From a virus, in IMG/VR virus record IMGVR_UViG_3300030109_003169, positions 1-51,745 of that record: DNA of 51,745 bases. One strand, 5' to 3'. Below, piece after piece: positions 18,976 to 35,457 of this stretch. Under the pieces are notes generated by a model that saw nothing but the letters and a program-made list of their open reading frames with translations, ran no database searches and was not told the DNA's origin. Made by a program: the position numbers and the translations under genes. Each line of letters starts with the position of its first letter. Within the stretch, counting starts at the first letter, position 1.

Positions 18976-19005
18976 AATATACACATTTTTATGTATACAA
19001 GTCAA
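18976..19005 (-). promoter_or_regulatory. Predicted promoter for the DUF1599-like gene
   Basis: On the minus strand TTGACT (19005-19000) is followed after 18 nt by TATATT (18981-18976), with the ATG 24 nt further on. The -35 lies inside the end of the Mom-like gene. The box sits in an 11-nt sequence (AAGCTTGACTT) repeated upstream of the DNA polymerase gene. Confidence 0.6.
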
Positions 19006-19621
19006 GCTTTTTTATTTGTCTTTTAATTTTTTTATTAAGATAGTATACATAAATATGCTTTGGTTTTGTGTTCTTCCAAAATATATTTTCATCACCAGCT
19101 TCGTATCTTCGTTTTAATTCTCTTCCATACGGCCTGTCTAATTGATTCAAAGACCTACTATGCATTTCTTTACCATCTACCATTAGTATCCTACCTCTCG
19201 ATGTCTCACCTAAATAATCAAAGTTAGTAGCTTTGTAAATCACACCCGTATGTCCGTGATGTTGGTCAGCAAACGAAACTATAACTTCCATATCTGTATC
19301 TCTTTTTAGTAATTTAAATGTCTGTCCTATAAAAAAACTTTCTGTGTTTTTAGGTGTGGCATCAATACAAACTAATCTTCTAAGTTCTAAACACTTAGTG
19401 GGATTAATTGGATTGTATTTAGCTGCTGTAGCTGGCATTGATGGATGAGCATACATCATAGCCCCAATCATTTTAGGTATTCCGAAATTTCCCTCTGTAA
19501 ATAATCCATAATGATATAAAGATTGGACACCATTTACATTGTGTGAATAGTGATGTTTCTCTATAAACTTTACTACTGATTTTCTAGGTACTTCTTCAAC
19601 TGTGAAGTTCTTTACGCTCAT
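18989..19621 (-). CDS. Mom-like GNAT-family protein (first copy)
   Basis: This 210-aa protein has HHYSHNVNGVQSLYHYGLF, ELRRLVCIDATPKNTESFF and SFADQHHGHTGVIYKATNF, which follow the conserved blocks of phage Mu Mom and related phage GNAT-fold proteins. Mom modifies adenines in DNA to protect it from restriction enzymes. The same family in other phages is often unassigned, so DNA modification here is by analogy. A second member lies at 22004-22768. It sits 2 nt after the clamp-loader small-subunit gene, within the replication transcript, a suitable place for a DNA-modifying enzyme. Confidence 0.72.
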   Translation of the reverse strand: MSVKNFTVEEVPRKSVVKFIEKHHYSHNVNGVQSLYHYGLFTEGNFGIPKMIGAMMYAHPSMPATAAKYNPINPTKCLELRRLVCIDATPKNTESFFIGQTFKLLKRDTDMEVIVSFADQHHGHTGVIYKATNFDYLGETSRGRILMVDGKEMHSRSLNQLDRPYGRELKRRYEAGDENIFWKNTKPKHIYVYYLNKKIKRQIKKLDLYT

Positions 19622-21081: not shown

Positions 21082-22016
21082 TTTATAATTCCCAACAATT
21101 CTATCATCATAGCCATCACATTTATTTCTTTATCAACAACCTGCGCATCTGATAATTGATATTTAGCAATAGTCAATATACATTCTGCTACGTGTCCTTT
21201 ACCATAATCATCAACTTCATCATACAACAAACGGAACACATCAGCAAAGTCTGATATTTGATTATCACCTAACATCTTTCTTATAGTCACAAAAGCGTCT
21301 TTCTTACTTTGTGTTTTCAATACATTGACAACTTGAGTAGAAAATACATTTACATTCAAATCAACTGCAACTAAATTATCTTGGTCGATTGACAACTTAC
21401 CATCAACTACTTGCCTTTGAGCAAAGTTTATAACTCTACGAATATCAGGATAGCCACCATTAACCAATGTAGCTACATCATCAACTTCGAACCCAACACC
21501 CTCTCCTTTTAAGATTTCGTTTAGGTGAATAGCAACTTCTTTTCTTGATGGTGGTACTATCTGAAATGGTTGGCAACGACTCTGTATTGGATCGATAATC
21601 CTTTCTACATAGTTACAAGTCAATATGAAACGAGTATGTTTAGAAAAAGTCTCCATAAGGTTACGCAAAGCCGCTTGTGCGTTAGGTGTGATATAATCAC
21701 ACTCATCTAATATAACAACTTTCATATCTTTGAATCCAATAGTAGAAGCAAAACCACGAACCTTATTACGAACTACATCAACACTATTCTCATCTGAAGC
21801 GTTAATATATAAGTGGTCACAATCTATATTATTGACAAGCAATTTAGCAAGAGTGGTTTTACCTGTACCTGCCCTACCATATAATAAAAGGTGTGGCAAA
21901 TCCCCACTCTCTAAATAAACCTTAACCTTACTTTTTAGATGTTCATTTCCTATATAAGATTCAAGTGAATTAGGGCGATACTTTTCAACCCATAAGGTAT
22001 TATCTAATCTTTCCAT
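21078..22016 (-). CDS. 44: Clamp loader AAA+ subunit, T4 gp44-like
   Basis: The 312-aa AAA+ ATPase has Walker A GRAGTGKTT at residues 47-55, Walker B VVILDECDYI, sensor FILTCNY and the SRC motif (IQSRCQPF). It starts LWVEKYRPNSLESYIGNE, as in RFC/gp44 proteins. It forms the motor of the clamp loader with the gp62-like subunit and opens the gp45-like clamp encoded just upstream. The length is normal for gp44. Its start overlaps the end of the second Mom-like gene by 13 nt. Confidence 0.93.
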   Translation of the reverse strand: MERLDNTLWVEKYRPNSLESYIGNEHLKSKVKVYLESGDLPHLLLYGRAGTGKTTLAKLLVNNIDCDHLYINASDENSVDVVRNKVRGFASTIGFKDMKVVILDECDYITPNAQAALRNLMETFSKHTRFILTCNYVERIIDPIQSRCQPFQIVPPSRKEVAIHLNEILKGEGVGFEVDDVATLVNGGYPDIRRVINFAQRQVVDGKLSIDQDNLVAVDLNVNVFSTQVVNVLKTQSKKDAFVTIRKMLGDNQISDFADVFRLLYDEVDDYGKGHVAECILTIAKYQLSDAQVVDKEINVMAMMIELLGIIK

Positions 22017-22768
22017 TTTTCGTTATTAACCTCTACTTTTGTTATTTCAATATCGTGTTTATAGTTTTTAGGATAGTCCATTTCAGGATGTTTCATAACA
22101 CTATGAAATTTTCTATTCTCTTTTTTATTACCAAGAAAGTAAATGTATCTATGTTTACTAGCTTCTTTCTTCAACCAAAAGTCGTGTCCAATAGCCTTAA
22201 CCATTTTCTTAGGATCTGATGAACCAAATTTAGAATAAACACTTCTACTATGTATCCATTCTCCATCTTCTTCTAATCTCAGAGAATAGGTTGGCGCCAT
22301 TTGAAAAGCACCACAACCTTGATATATCCAATTAGTTGCTTGGTAGATAGCACCATCGTGTGATTGTTCAGGGTCAGCATAAGATATTAGAACCTTTATA
22401 TTTTGAGCGTTCTCTTTCAACCATTTGAAAGTCAATCCCAATGCCAAAGACTCAATATTTTTGCCATATCCATCGTGGATGAAGAGTCTCGTAAGTTCTA
22501 ATATGTTTTTATTCTCTAATATTTCTTCAGAGAAGATAGAACCGAGAACTCTTCTTCCAACAGGAAAACCATAACATGCAACTCCCACAAGTTTCTCTTC
22601 AGCTTCTGCAAAGAATTTGTGTTCATTATCAGTTTGATAAAAGATTCCAAGAGGATAGCGACAAGATGACAACCTACCACTATAATGGTTTTTTTCTATT
22701 ATATCCTTAGCCAATGGTTTATAGATTGGTCTAACGGATACTCTAGACTTATCTACATATTCTTCCAT
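22004..22768 (-). CDS. Mom-like GNAT-family protein (second copy)
   Basis: This 254-aa protein shares the blocks of the first copy: NHYSGRLSSCRYPLGIF, ELTRLFIHDGYGKNIESLA and SYADPEQSHDGAIYQATNW. The two are diverged, so they are not a recent duplication, and this copy has a longer C-terminus (IYFLGNKKENRKFHS). It lies between the sliding clamp and clamp-loader genes, which in T4-like phages are normally adjacent. It may modify phage DNA as it is replicated, by analogy with Mu Mom; the substrate is not known. Confidence 0.72.
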   Translation of the reverse strand: MEEYVDKSRVSVRPIYKPLAKDIIEKNHYSGRLSSCRYPLGIFYQTDNEHKFFAEAEEKLVGVACYGFPVGRRVLGSIFSEEILENKNILELTRLFIHDGYGKNIESLALGLTFKWLKENAQNIKVLISYADPEQSHDGAIYQATNWIYQGCGAFQMAPTYSLRLEEDGEWIHSRSVYSKFGSSDPKKMVKAIGHDFWLKKEASKHRYIYFLGNKKENRKFHSVMKHPEMDYPKNYKHDIEITKVEVNNEKWKD

Positions 22769-26148: not shown

Positions 26149-28875
26149 TTAAAAATTAACAGAAAGTCCTAAGTTGAAGTGTCTTGGTGTACCCAAAAAT
26201 ACTTCAGCGTTATGAGCTGCGTGAACTTTGTCACCATACCCATTGTACTTACTATTATCGACAGCATCCTGTACATAAACATTATCAAGTGCGTTAAACA
26301 CGTGACCAGTTAGAGTTAAATCTAAACCAGCAATTTCTGGCAGTTTATATGCAAAATGCAAATCAAGTTTAGAATATCCAGGAGATTTCCAAACTTGTGC
26401 TCTGTCAGCGTCACCATCGACTTCACGAGAATCAGGACTCCAATCAGCATAGTGATTGTCGTATATCCTATAAAGACCCTGTAAACTAAGTCCATCGATT
26501 GGCTTTAGTGTAAGACCACCAACATAAGCAGTTTGTGGCATATCACCAACCATTAAACCATCGAGAGCGTATTCATACTCTGTAGAAGTCTGACCAATGA
26601 TTTGATTATCATCGTTGTATTCCATCTCTGTATAATCACCTTTAGCATCGCCATCAAACTTCCAAGAACCAATACTTACTGCTACATCCAACTCAACCAT
26701 TTCGTGAAGAGCAACTTTAGACTCTATCTCAAAACCGCTGTGACTTTGGTCGACACCTTTAAGATAAATAATATCTGTGTCGCCTGAGTCACCTTGACCT
26801 GTTGTTACAGATTTAGTAAGGTTTCTATCTTTCCATTGAGTGTTATAGAAACTACCTTTGATAGCAACTAATTCACTGTTATACTCACCACCGATTTCAT
26901 TAGATATGAATTTCTCATTATCTGGATTCTGTGATACATTACCATCATAATCGATTACATTATCTAAGATTGGTGGTTTCTGAACATACCCAACATTGGC
27001 AAATGCTGACATTCTATCATCAAGATTGAATCTACCACCACCTTTAACTTGAAAGGTTGTAATATTATCAGCCTCAACTACATCAGCATCAACAGCAAAA
27101 TGGTCGTGATAAGTATATCCAATTGTAGATACACCACCCATACCATAAAGGTTGAATTTTTCAGTATCATATTTACCTTGCACAAATCCACCTAACCAAT
27201 CAACAGTAGTTTCGTTATGATAAGCGATAATATCACCTAACCTAACAACTTTACCATCAGCAGCGTTGTCATCAGCAAAATCAACATAATAGTCACCACC
27301 TAATAAATCACGAACTTCACGAGCGTGTTCTATACCAGCAGTTCTCCAATCAAGACCAATCTGAACTTCAAGTTCATCTGAAACATCATAGTTTAATTTA
27401 GAAATCAAACCATAAGTGTTTTGTCTATTGATTGAATTACGAAGTATACCTGTTGAGCGATTTTCTGTATCAGACCAAGCAGAATCTACATTAGCAGAGT
27501 TCTGTTCAATCTCAGCGTTCCAATCCCACATCCAAGGTGAACTTGCGTACCAAGCATTTCCTTCAACTGCAGGTATTCTACTGACACTACCATAAGTACC
27601 AGTTCCACCACCTGAACCACCAGACCAATAGAGTACAGAACTTAGTCTCATCTCATCATTGATGTCATAGAAATGGTTAAGGTTTACCAATGGTTTATGA
27701 AAGAAGTTTTCTCTTTCATTCAACATATTGGCATTATACCTATCGGTTGTTCTCGCACCATACATATACCAATACTGCTGGCCTTTGTATGATGGATCAA
27801 CAGGTGCCCAATTTTGGTTGAAAAACCTACCAGCTTCGTGCTCAAACTTCTCACCCTCAACATAAGCTGAATCGTTGTATCCATCGATACTACCAGCTAA
27901 CTCTTGTGAATAAGTTGCTATGTTCTGTTTATATAGGTTTTGTCCGTGCCTTTGTGGTGCACCAATTGCGTATAACTCAAATCGATGTTCGTCATTCATC
28001 TGATAGGAACTACCAAAGTAGTAAGCCCATGCGTCTGTCCAAGTTCCATCAATGAAACCATCACCAGTCTTACGAACTATTGTTCCACTAAGTGCCAGTT
28101 TGTCATTGATTAGACCTGAGTTATAGTTTAAAGTAGATTTAAGGAATCCACCCTCACCTACTTCTTGCTTTATTTTACCACCCTTTTCGTGAGCAGCAGG
28201 ATCTGTGATGATGTTCATAGTTCCACCAATTGACGGTGTTGCTAAATTAACGGCTGATAGACCTCTTTGCATCTGTATGGAATTAGAAGCATCTGCGACA
28301 CCATCCCAATTAGACCAATAAACCCATCCGTTCTCCATATCATTTTGGGGAACACCATTTATCATCACTGCAACATTTCGTTGATTGAAACCTCGAACAT
28401 TGATACGAGCATCACCCGCACCACCGCCTTGCCCAGTTGCGTAAACACTCGGTGTAGTATTCAGAGCCATTGGAATATCTTGTGAGCCAAGACGGAATTC
28501 CAAATCTTCCTTACTAACATTAGTGTAGGCAACAGGTGTTGTTTCATCAGCGCGAGAAGCTAATACTTCAAGAGCTGATAATGTAACAGCATCGATTTCT
28601 AAAGTGAAATCGGCATTTACATTACTTTCACCCACTGTTACTGTCACAGTAACTGATGAGTACCCAATGAATGAAGCAGTTACATTGTGTGTGCCAACTG
28701 GTACATCTACAACATAAGAACCATCTTGTGTTGAGACAGCTCCTAAGTTAGTACCATCAACAACCACATTCGCTCCAGCCAAAGGTTGCTTACCATCAGT
28801 TACAATTCCAACTACAGATTGAGCAAACAATCCTGTCATCATCATAAATGATAGTATTAGATTACGATATTTCAT
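26149..28875 (-). CDS. TonB-dependent outer-membrane receptor
   Basis: The 908-aa protein has a signal peptide (about residues 1-19, ending LFAQS), a CarboxypepD-regulatory-like domain (about 20-95, GANVVVDGTNLGAVSTQDGS), a plug with INVRGFNQRNVAVMINGVP and SIQMQRGLSAVNLATPSIGG, and a long beta-barrel ending in Phe as OMP barrels do. Such receptors import siderophores, cobalamin or glycans in FCB-group bacteria. I see no frameshift or truncation. It has an AAGGAGAA ribosome-binding site, an upstream leader with a predicted pseudoknot and a terminator. A complete receptor in a phage replication region is very unusual and was probably taken from the host. Confidence 0.95.
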   Translation of the reverse strand: MKYRNLILSFMMMTGLFAQSVVGIVTDGKQPLAGANVVVDGTNLGAVSTQDGSYVVDVPVGTHNVTASFIGYSSVTVTVTVGESNVNADFTLEIDAVTLSALEVLASRADETTPVAYTNVSKEDLEFRLGSQDIPMALNTTPSVYATGQGGGAGDARINVRGFNQRNVAVMINGVPQNDMENGWVYWSNWDGVADASNSIQMQRGLSAVNLATPSIGGTMNIITDPAAHEKGGKIKQEVGEGGFLKSTLNYNSGLINDKLALSGTIVRKTGDGFIDGTWTDAWAYYFGSSYQMNDEHRFELYAIGAPQRHGQNLYKQNIATYSQELAGSIDGYNDSAYVEGEKFEHEAGRFFNQNWAPVDPSYKGQQYWYMYGARTTDRYNANMLNERENFFHKPLVNLNHFYDINDEMRLSSVLYWSGGSGGGTGTYGSVSRIPAVEGNAWYASSPWMWDWNAEIEQNSANVDSAWSDTENRSTGILRNSINRQNTYGLISKLNYDVSDELEVQIGLDWRTAGIEHAREVRDLLGGDYYVDFADDNAADGKVVRLGDIIAYHNETTVDWLGGFVQGKYDTEKFNLYGMGGVSTIGYTYHDHFAVDADVVEADNITTFQVKGGGRFNLDDRMSAFANVGYVQKPPILDNVIDYDGNVSQNPDNEKFISNEIGGEYNSELVAIKGSFYNTQWKDRNLTKSVTTGQGDSGDTDIIYLKGVDQSHSGFEIESKVALHEMVELDVAVSIGSWKFDGDAKGDYTEMEYNDDNQIIGQTSTEYEYALDGLMVGDMPQTAYVGGLTLKPIDGLSLQGLYRIYDNHYADWSPDSREVDGDADRAQVWKSPGYSKLDLHFAYKLPEIAGLDLTLTGHVFNALDNVYVQDAVDNSKYNGYGDKVHAAHNAEVFLGTPRHFNLGLSVNF

Positions 28876-28908
28876 TTCATCGTTCTCCTTCTTTGTTCAT
28901 TAATGAAA

Positions 28909-28942
28909 GGCACATTTTTCTACAGGTGTGCCGGCTGCCTGT
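28909..28942 (-). promoter_or_regulatory. Predicted H-type RNA pseudoknot in the leader of the TonB receptor gene
   Basis: On the minus strand ACAGG (28942-28938) pairs with CCTGT (28926-28922), while GGCACA (28932-28927), lying in the loop of that stem, pairs with TGTGCC (28914-28909). Stem 1 is 5 bp, stem 2 is 6 bp, loop 1 is CAGCC, loop 2 is zero and loop 3 is the A-rich AGAAAAA. This is the geometry of compact riboswitch or translational-control pseudoknots. It ends about 18 nt before the ribosome-binding site. It matches no known class that I can identify. Confidence 0.5.
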
Positions 28943-28950
28943 CCGCATGT

Positions 28951-30933
28951 TTAATTTCCATATTCAGGTACTTCGCAAACATCATTGTTACAAAATTTAT
29001 CGACATCTGCTTCTTCGTTCTTAATTACACCAAATGATAATTTACCTAATTTACTTACCATCTCATTATATTCAGCTTCTGTAATAGCTTCGTATGGCAT
29101 TTGTTTATAAGCACCTAACTCGTGCCGTGGTAATAATGATATACCTTTCAACTTATATTGAAAGTAATTAAGTACGTGTGGTAATTGTTCTGATTCTGTT
29201 TCAGGATCAAATGTAGCAGTACAACTTACTTGATTATCTGCCCAATGTCTTTGTAGAAAAGCGGCTAAACTGAATTGTTCCCAAATAGAAAGTTCAGCCG
29301 CAGTTCTGATCCCTTCTCCCACATCCACGGGTACTTCTACAACCATTGTCGTATCTTCTGAACCGAAAGCTGGTTCTAATGGATAGTTAGCTTTCTTTAG
29401 TGGTTCTAATAATTCTGAATGTTTTGATAATCTCATTCTCCTAATATAAAACCTCGACTCAGGATAGTGCATTCCTGGAGTAGCGCCAACCAATAATGAA
29501 ACTGTACCACTCGGTTTAACTGAAGTAGTTTTAATTGACTTTGGTACAGCAAACCAATCACTATATTGTTTATCCCAATCTTGAATAGTGTCATATCCTT
29601 TCTCCAACCATTTCTGTAATTCACCCATTCCATTTTTGGTAATAAACTGAGCTACTCCACTTACAGAACATCCTATTCTTCTATTTCTTAACATAACTCT
29701 ATTGGTTTCAGGCCAATGAGTTCTTCCTAATGTAACTGTTTTAGCGTACAGATACGCATATTTTAAAGTTCTTTGATAATCTTCTAATGAATCGTGATTA
29801 GATGGAAATGTTTCTACTAAGCAACATAACTCATATGATTCTAATGATTGTTCTAAACAAGGATTACCACCAGCTACTCTGTGGTCTTTATCATCACCAC
29901 CATTTTTCATACGAGAGTAGTGTCTCATATTTTCTAACCAAGCAAATCCAGGCTCACCATTATCCACAATTCGTTTACACACATCAGTATAATCCATACC
30001 AAGTTCGGCAAATATACTATTATTACTTGTCCATCCATATTGCTCTCTCCCAGGATTTACTTTATAATTCTTTAAATCTAAATATTCTTCATTATCAGGT
30101 TCACCAAATACAATCTCAGCAGTTCTTCTTACATTACCTGCAACAACACATTTGCCGATAAGATTCATTATGTCTACGATTGTTGTGATTGATATTGGTT
30201 CGCCACTATTTTTATATAATACCTTTCTTATATCTTCGTGTACTTCTAATAATGGTTCGTGTCCACTACTAACTCCACCAAACCCTTTGATTGGTTGACC
30301 TGCTGGTCTAATTAATTGATAATCAAACTCTACTGGTGCAGTTCCGTGAAAGTAACTATCCAAAAGAATTTTTAGAGATTCAACCCAACCCTCACGAGTA
30401 TCAGGTATTTCAAATACTTGTTCATCTCTATTTTCATCAACTCCTTTTACAACTATCTCTCCTGCACCTTTTGTATCAAATCCAACACCAACACCCAACA
30501 TACTGGCATCCATAAGGAAACAGAATGGTTTTGAGTAATCTTCTTTTATTGTTGATGTAGATACAAATGCACAATTGTTAAGGGCGGCGTATAAACCTTT
30601 CTCTTCAGTTATGGCTGTTCCCATAGCCCAAAGACCTCGGCCAGGTGGCAAAAACTTCATATTGAACATACGCTCATACATATCTTGCGCAGAAGATTGA
30701 GCTTGCCACGGATTCCACCCTAATTGATGTGAATCAATCCATTTCTTTTGCATAGAGTAAGTTCCCTCTACAACCCTTTGTACAGTTTCCCACCATCTTT
30801 CGTTTTTACCATTGTCTTTGATTCTTGAATAGGTTCTCATATAAACTAACTCACCTAATCCGTTAAAACCGAATGGTGGTTTTTTCCTTTTAAATTTATT
30901 TATAAACTTTTCTGATAATGTAAACTTTTCCAT
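28951..30933 (-). CDS. nrdJ: Class II (adenosylcobalamin-dependent) ribonucleoside-triphosphate reductase
   Basis: This 660-aa enzyme makes deoxynucleotides with a B12-generated thiyl radical. It resembles the monomeric Lactobacillus-type enzyme: FLPPGRGLWAMGT, the redox Cys121 in LNNCAFVSTST, MLGVGVGFDTKG for B12 binding, NPCLEQSLESYELCCLVETF with the radical-site Cys, and PSGTVSLLVGATPG. The C-terminal tail ends CNNDVCEVPEYGN, a C-x4-C pair that shuttles electrons. It is shorter than the 739-aa Lactobacillus enzyme. It needs host cobalamin, which is notable beside a TonB-dependent receptor gene. A strong promoter lies upstream. Confidence 0.93.
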   Translation of the reverse strand: MEKFTLSEKFINKFKRKKPPFGFNGLGELVYMRTYSRIKDNGKNERWWETVQRVVEGTYSMQKKWIDSHQLGWNPWQAQSSAQDMYERMFNMKFLPPGRGLWAMGTAITEEKGLYAALNNCAFVSTSTIKEDYSKPFCFLMDASMLGVGVGFDTKGAGEIVVKGVDENRDEQVFEIPDTREGWVESLKILLDSYFHGTAPVEFDYQLIRPAGQPIKGFGGVSSGHEPLLEVHEDIRKVLYKNSGEPISITTIVDIMNLIGKCVVAGNVRRTAEIVFGEPDNEEYLDLKNYKVNPGREQYGWTSNNSIFAELGMDYTDVCKRIVDNGEPGFAWLENMRHYSRMKNGGDDKDHRVAGGNPCLEQSLESYELCCLVETFPSNHDSLEDYQRTLKYAYLYAKTVTLGRTHWPETNRVMLRNRRIGCSVSGVAQFITKNGMGELQKWLEKGYDTIQDWDKQYSDWFAVPKSIKTTSVKPSGTVSLLVGATPGMHYPESRFYIRRMRLSKHSELLEPLKKANYPLEPAFGSEDTTMVVEVPVDVGEGIRTAAELSIWEQFSLAAFLQRHWADNQVSCTATFDPETESEQLPHVLNYFQYKLKGISLLPRHELGAYKQMPYEAITEAEYNEMVSKLGKLSFGVIKNEEADVDKFCNNDVCEVPEYGN

Positions 30934-34695: not shown

Positions 34696-35457
34696 TTACT
34701 TATTGAACAATTCGTCAAAAGCTGCGCTTGTGTCCTCAACCTTAGTTGATTCGGCAATTGTAGCTGAAACAGGTGCTGTTTCTTTTTTAGACTCATCAGT
34801 ACTCTCTTCGTTTGGATTCAACCACTCATTAAGAACACCAGTTAGTTCTTCATAAGATAATTCCTGATACAACTCAGCAATATTCTTTTGATTATCTAAC
34901 AGAGCTTCAAGCTTTGCTTTGTCCTCAATAATAGGTGTTTGATTCGGTTTAACACGAATAGAAGTTGATGGAAAAGATTTACCTGTTTCCTCAGCAGTTT
35001 TGAATTCGACAGCGACATCACGACCACTTACAGGATCGGTAATATCACCATAGTCTGGATCTGCAATTACAGAAAGTAATTCCTGATAAACAGTCTTACC
35101 AAAACCCCAAAAACGAACACCTTGAGCTTCTTCACCTCTTACGATTATCGGAGCAAAAGTTCTCATTTTAGCTTCCAATTTACGAGCCATTTGGTATTCC
35201 TCACGATTGCCACTCGTTTTAAGTTTTTGAGCAAACTCTTCGATTGGATCTGGACGACCATATGTGATTGGTGAAAGATAGGTTTTGTTATTCAAACCAA
35301 AGTGGAAGAACAATTCAATGAAAGGATTATCCTTATTATGTTTGTAAGGTAATACTCTAATTACTTGCTTTCCTGGTTGTGGTTTCCATAGGTTTGAAGT
35401 CCTATTGTTTGTGGTTTGTAGCTGTGTAAGCCTGTTACGAATAGAATTAATATCCAT
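34696..35457 (-). CDS. 32: Single-stranded DNA-binding protein, T4 gp32-like
   Basis: The 253-aa protein starts MDINSIRNRLTQLQ, as in gp32 N-terminal cooperative-binding regions, followed by LWKPQPGKQVIRVLPYKHN and the core block LFFHFGLNNKTYLSPITYG, RFWGFGKTVYQELLS and DPVSGRDVAVEF. The C-terminus is an acidic tail (DTSAAFDELFNK) that recruits partners. The T4 zinc-binding cysteines are absent, as in many marine relatives. It sits upstream of uvsX, next to the recombination partner. Confidence 0.88.
   Translation of the reverse strand: MDINSIRNRLTQLQTTNNRTSNLWKPQPGKQVIRVLPYKHNKDNPFIELFFHFGLNNKTYLSPITYGRPDPIEEFAQKLKTSGNREEYQMARKLEAKMRTFAPIIVRGEEAQGVRFWGFGKTVYQELLSVIADPDYGDITDPVSGRDVAVEFKTAEETGKSFPSTSIRVKPNQTPIIEDKAKLEALLDNQKNIAELYQELSYEELTGVLNEWLNPNEESTDESKKETAPVSATIAESTKVEDTSAAFDELFNK

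Follow-up and report, generated by a model that had tools for sequence, protein, structure and literature searches.

In phage T4, the gp32 operator fronts an SSB gene and consists of a pseudoknot of ~28 nt followed by a single strand that contains UUAAA (PMC535899, PMC3014915). The leader described here resembles that of gene 32 in T4, T2 and RB69 in that a small H-type pseudoknot lies 5' in a T4-type phage leader, with an A/U-rich run to the ribosome-binding site (RBS). The two differ in gene, sequence and spacing; moreover, an RBS hairpin follows the pseudoknot here, and a binding protein is known only for gene 32. All copies of the present element seen in related phages precede the transporter gene, whereas the gp32-like leader of the phage under study has none. 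Frameshift pseudoknots of luteoviruses (BWYV-type) have a stem 1 that ends in GG, a loop 1 that starts with CA and an A-rich loop over stem 1. The transporter-leader pseudoknot shares these three features, but it lies outside the coding sequence, lacks a fixed slippery site and has a longer stem 2 and loop 1.

Among riboswitches, preQ1-I (RF00522) offers the nearest likeness: it is about 34 nt long and H-type, has an A-rich third loop and is found upstream of a gene. In contrast, the present fold has no middle loop with a specificity cytosine, its stem 2 counts 6 bp, and the Shine-Dalgarno (SD) sequence lies outside it. In preQ1-I, the specificity cytosine belongs to an AC or UC motif and immediately precedes P1's 3' strand (PMC11625349); here, the base before CCUGU is an A paired in stem 2 in 141/141 distinct leaders of related phages. 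The position equivalent to U6 of preQ1-I, in loop 1 directly after P1, is C in 140 of these leaders and A in one. Since both the specificity cytosine and the loop-1 U are absent, and cmscan against Rfam 15 returned no family match, whether at the gathering score or with E relaxed to 10, preQ1-I identity was rejected. PhotoRC-II, wcaG and manA are structured RNAs of marine samples and T4-like phages that lie upstream of host-like metabolic genes (PMC2864571); these marine cyanophage elements differ in structure, host and gene, and are already in Rfam. Finally, mobE of the T4-like phage Aeh1, as cited in PMC3014915, likewise combines an RBS-sequestering hairpin with linkage to a ribonucleotide reductase gene, but it is a homing endonuclease gene for which no pseudoknot is described.

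The locus lies in a stretch of 51,745 nt (IMG/VR virus record IMGVR_UViG_3300030109_003169, positions 1 to 51,745), hereafter the window, from a marine phage that its UvsX/RecA-like protein, gp32-like protein and family B polymerase identify as T4-like. The pseudoknot site is intergenic, between the gene for a class II ribonucleotide reductase (RNR) and that for a TonB-dependent transporter (Table 1); the RNR stop codon (UAA) occupies 28953-28951, and stem 1 begins 8 nt further on. The presence of a full-length transporter gene of this type in a T4-like phage is an observation in its own right, shared by hundreds of related marine contigs. The gene is flanked by those for RNR and the family B polymerase, and 43 related RNR loci are without it. 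It adjoins a B12-dependent reductase, and phages with this arrangement may enhance B12 uptake (PMC10547690). Directly downstream of RNR in several relatives (L038, L068, L079 and L159) is a glutamine synthetase-like reading frame (HKLEYLWLDG...WGFDGSST), which in some relatives precedes the transporter gene. Elsewhere in the window, two Mom-like DNA modification family proteins (phrog_1384) are encoded at 18989-19621 and 22004-22768, both in one phage.

Table 1. Features of the transporter leader and its flanking genes in the window.
Feature	Position	Strand	Basis
Adenosylcobalamin-dependent (class II) RNR, usual upstream gene	28951..30933	-	NCBIfam RTPR
GCGG directly 5' of stem 1	28943..28946	-	90/127 distinct leaders, about three quarters
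Stem 1 (S1), ACAGG/CCUGU, 5 bp	28942-28938 with 28926-28922	-	sequence; conserved, covarying
Loop 1 (L1), CAGCC, 5 nt	28937-28933	-	sequence
Stem 2 (S2), GGCACA/UGUGCC, 6 bp	28932-28927 with 28914-28909	-	sequence; conserved, covarying
Middle loop absent, 0 nt	between S2 5' strand and S1 3' strand	-	sequence
Loop 3 (L3), AGAAAAA, 7 nt	28921-28915	-	sequence
A-rich spacer, pseudoknot to SD	28891..28908	-	spacing and composition, 127 distinct leaders
SD sequence AAGGAG of transporter gene	28885..28890	-	sequence
RBS hairpin	28859..28888	-	present in 99/99 leaders; covariation of 5' arm and codons 2-6
TonB-dependent transporter, 908 aa; CarboxypepD_reg-like domain, plug, barrel	26149..28875	-	Pfam; Foldseek

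Read on the minus strand from 28942 to 28909, the segments S1, L1, S2, S1, L3 and S2 follow one another as an H-type pseudoknot of 34 nt. An earlier reading of the window made from its sequence alone (the sequence-only reading) had described two perfect interlocking stems, no nucleotide in the middle loop and a third loop rich in A, and had called the element GC-rich relative to its surroundings; the sequence agrees on every count, with a G+C content of 19/34 by direct count in an AT-rich region. That reading also placed the element just before a strong RBS; in the window, its 3' end is 18 nt from AAGGAG and 33 nt from the ATG at 28875. Geometry alone is not significant: perfect 5+6-bp pseudoknots of the same geometry occur 17 times in the window, against an average of ~8 per dinucleotide shuffle, although none but that at 28942 to 28909 joins stems rich in G+C to an A-rich L3 and a middle loop of length zero.

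Related phage contigs were fetched with the RNR, transporter and polymerase proteins, by pattern and with a host transporter query. The scan for the element was anchored on the transporter start, required pairing and an A-rich L3, scored leaders with UG and AAA at the loop/stem end slightly higher, and counted loci with at least 100 nt of upstream DNA. The element was found in 312/312 related transporter loci. These loci, redundant in their contigs, comprise 141 distinct leaders with 74 different sequences of the element. This conservation, together with covariation in both stems, makes the pseudoknot more than a chance fold. Conversely, among RNR loci with a readable next gene, 43/43 without a transporter gene in reach were also without the element; two RNR loci in which no transporter was recognised nevertheless carry it. 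By tblastn, a gene other than RNR lies upstream in 13 loci (some are glutamine synthetase-like), and the element is present there as well; its distance from the upstream stop codon varies widely. When 14 phage contigs of 55-165 kb were scanned with a covariance model, every one had a single copy; a contig with no transporter gene next to RNR had none. From the loci with and without transporter, the varying upstream gene and the single copies, it follows that the element belongs to the transporter gene: across these contigs the comparison shows it tied to that gene and upstream of no other, and the RNR gene, to judge from the same loci, is not itself tied to it. All receptors are at least 63% identical, and the family is therefore narrow.

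Both stems show the signature of a selected RNA structure, as the sequence-only reading had proposed; the covariation check that it suggested was run, and neither missing covariation nor leaders devoid of a stem spoke against it. Over 61 distinct sequences, 97.9% of pair cells hold standard pairs and double changes occur at 6/11 pairs; the observed score was reached by 0/500 shuffles, in a test inflated by relatedness and recombination. A FastTree tree of 136 receptor genes was used to count changes as well. There were 8 changes at S1 pair 2 (CG/UA), 4 at S1 pair 3 (AU/UA) and 12 at S2 pair 4 (AU/GC), equally on both sides and with no broken pair; these 24 coordinated changes are approximate, because the tree is a fast one with no recombination model for receptors at least 63% identical. 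S2 pair 2 shifts among AU, GC and GU on the same tree, and the 141 distinct leaders contain G.U at this pair in 6 cases and A.C in none, which points to RNA of the sense strand; the alignments thus show a pseudoknot that would form as RNA from that strand. The structure tolerates some departures, as the outer S1 pair is unpaired in about 17% of leaders and three leaders keep 5/6 S2 pairs. In contrast, the GG/CC next to L1, S2 pairs 3, 5 and 6, and the AAAA ending L3 are invariant in 141/141 leaders, while L1 starts with CA in 140/141 and with CAG in 133/141. The near-invariant loop ends CA and AAAA have variable neighbours. Such loop and junction nucleotides could fit a binding site, and could also reflect a triplex-stabilised fold or tertiary contacts without ligand.

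A second element lies at the translation start. In the window, GGA of the SD (28888-28886) pairs with UCU (28861-28859), and ACGAUG (28883-28878) with UAUCGU (28869-28864). The comparison shows a predicted hairpin in which part of the SD pairs with codons 5-6 and the AUG (28875-28873) sits in the loop. A stem of at least 4 bp in the start region was present in 99/99 leaders examined, and its 5' arm tracks the codons (ACGUUU/AAACGU, ACGAU/AUCGU, ACGUA/UACGU, ACGC/GCGU, ACUUUUA/UAAAAGU, AGAUUA/UAAUCU). Cognate arms average -7.0 kcal/mol versus -5.9 kcal/mol when arms are swapped between leaders; none of 5000 permutations was as low as the cognate mean (49 representatives, one per distinct coding arm), although relatedness of the leaders inflates this test. 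The transporter start is the most stable fold of the 46 gene starts in the window, and the same region averages -3.0 kcal/mol at PolB starts and -1.9 kcal/mol at RNR starts of related phages. Within the hairpin, the transporter start is overlapped by a reading frame of two codons, ATGAAATGA (28872-28880), which most relatives do not show. A leader peptide finds no support, as the distance to the start codon spans all three frames.

Between the pseudoknot and the predicted RBS hairpin, the aligned leaders show an A-rich spacer that varies rather little in length (15-19 nt in most of 127 distinct leaders) and is a possible ribosome landing (standby) site. Within it, at 28895-28908, the window has an inverted repeat, TTCATTAATGAA; several relatives share it (or TTCGTTAACGAA), most do not. 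Farther 5', TTCACATA(C), rarely TTCGCATA, precedes the pseudoknot at a variable distance of up to about 25 nt in 67/127 leaders, L038, L068 and L159 among them, and is absent from the window; it is possibly a promoter or processing motif. The leader of one Marinimicrobia receptor, L340, has TTTCACATAA. A promoter and terminator scan between the RNR and transporter genes gave nothing convincing.

An exact pattern scan of GTDB genomes found no element, and relaxed fold patterns in viral contigs led to nothing beyond this transporter leader itself and matches due to chance. The nearest cellular receptors belong to Candidatus Marinimicrobia (best segments 58-67% identical), which suggests Marinimicrobia-type hosts for these phages. 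The pseudoknot is absent from the leaders of those receptors, and the RNA model run against 245 Ca. Marinimicrobia genomes gave chance matches only, with no true copy. The match in L425 (E 8e-6) falls inside an mfd-like coding sequence and misses the 5' strand of stem 1; it was taken as chance. The better receptor model (pLDDT 76) led Foldseek to TonB-dependent transporters generally (Fiu, PqqU, FhuA, FecA) and revealed no ligand. The literature searched holds no description of the element or of the phage transporter.

We propose that a two-part, phage-specific leader, made up of the pseudoknot, an unstructured spacer and the RBS hairpin, controls the start of transporter translation in cis, and estimate the probability of this explanation as a whole, with the transporter gene as its target, at roughly 0.78. 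The RBS hairpin would hide the SD and the AUG and keep default translation low, while the pseudoknot would bound the single-stranded spacer where the 30S subunit would land and set the ease of ribosome loading. With less confidence, a trans-acting factor, either a metabolite or a protein of phage or host origin, may bind the near-invariant loop and junction nucleotides, and its binding might turn the transporter gene up or down. The sequence-only reading had offered a translational control element or a new riboswitch sensing the ligand of the receptor. Its first half is well supported, because the selected pseudoknot belongs to the receptor gene at a fairly fixed distance from the RBS, which itself lies in a conserved hairpin. 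Its second half is possible but lacks such support: the SD and the pseudoknot do not pair, no alternative fold linking the two parts is visible, nothing points to a ligand and the pocket features of preQ1-I are absent. The predicted probability of SD-pseudoknot pairing averages 0.02 with a maximum of 0.25, and the RBS hairpin shares no bases with the pseudoknot. With pairing so improbable, a classic switch between mutually exclusive folds is not visible here.

What the pseudoknot itself does may be explained in several ways, and a protein-bound operator or a passive structure would account for these data as a riboswitch would. It is possible, although we lean against it, that the pseudoknot senses nothing and is a passive structure, which shields a processed mRNA at its 5' end or keeps ribosomes that finish translating the upstream gene away from the RBS hairpin. 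Triplex-type pseudoknots are mechanically stable. The fairly constant spacing to the SD, the varied distances at which it follows different upstream stop codons and the lack of a visible switch all speak for such a role. There is, however, no obvious reason why a passive structure should keep identical loop ends and invariant pairs in nearly all 141 distinct leaders, or be restricted to one gene, even if tertiary stability could account for part of this.

A metabolite riboswitch is possible but rather unlikely. It would be a very small aptamer, of preQ1-I size, in which a ligand, perhaps the compound imported by the transporter or a cofactor tied to it, alters the stability of the pseudoknot and hence 30S loading at the RBS hairpin, the latter being a possible expression platform. 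Its size, H-type fold, A-rich L3 and near-invariant loop and junction nucleotides, its association with one transport gene and the occurrence of riboswitches, namely glutamine riboswitches, in marine phages (PMC9004378) are in its favour. However, no sequence is common to the pseudoknot and the SD hairpin, no Rfam riboswitch matches even at E 10, the element precedes a single gene family, the nearest cellular receptor homologues are without it and the receptor fold reveals no ligand. The bolder version, a new phage-only riboswitch class, among the smallest known, whose 34-nt aptamer tunes the transporter through the RBS hairpin, is more doubtful still; the imported compound that it perhaps senses might be an iron chelate or a cofactor, either the cobalamin that would serve the adjacent B12-dependent reductase or a different one.

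The use by T4 of a pseudoknot and a UUAAA sequence for gp32 makes an operator of this type a serious rival, albeit a rather unlikely one. The phage SSB or another repressor would nucleate on the pseudoknot and spread over the A-rich spacer to the RBS; the window phage encodes a gp32-like protein at 34696-35457, and the 34-nt pseudoknot is followed by a spacer that often starts with UUAAC. Against this, the gp32-like gene of the same phage lacks such a pseudoknot, the RBS lies here in a hairpin rather than in an unstructured region, and control of a transporter by SSB has no clear rationale.

A stimulator of frameshifting or stop-codon readthrough for the upstream RNR gene was rejected as highly improbable. 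Some retroviral readthrough signals likewise lie 8 nt from the stop codon, the distance from UAA to stem 1 in the window, but in relatives that distance varies with no fixed slippery site or stop position, the upstream gene differs in 13 loci, RNR genes without transporter are without the element, and a ribosome that read on in frame in the window would translate 16 codons before the next stop. Finally, a chance fold or DNA-level feature, for which the number of such folds in shuffled windows may be cited, is scarcely credible given stems that covary in 141 distinct leaders and the strand asymmetry of G.U.

From these comparisons, we rate the element as a putative new RNA family among phage cis-regulatory leaders. 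It would be the second, unrelated leader pseudoknot of phages; the comparative support is strong, and the case comes from uncultured marine phages, in front of a transporter gene that the phage itself carries. It also makes testable the question of what signal sets the time at which a phage places an uptake receptor of its own in the outer membrane of its host.
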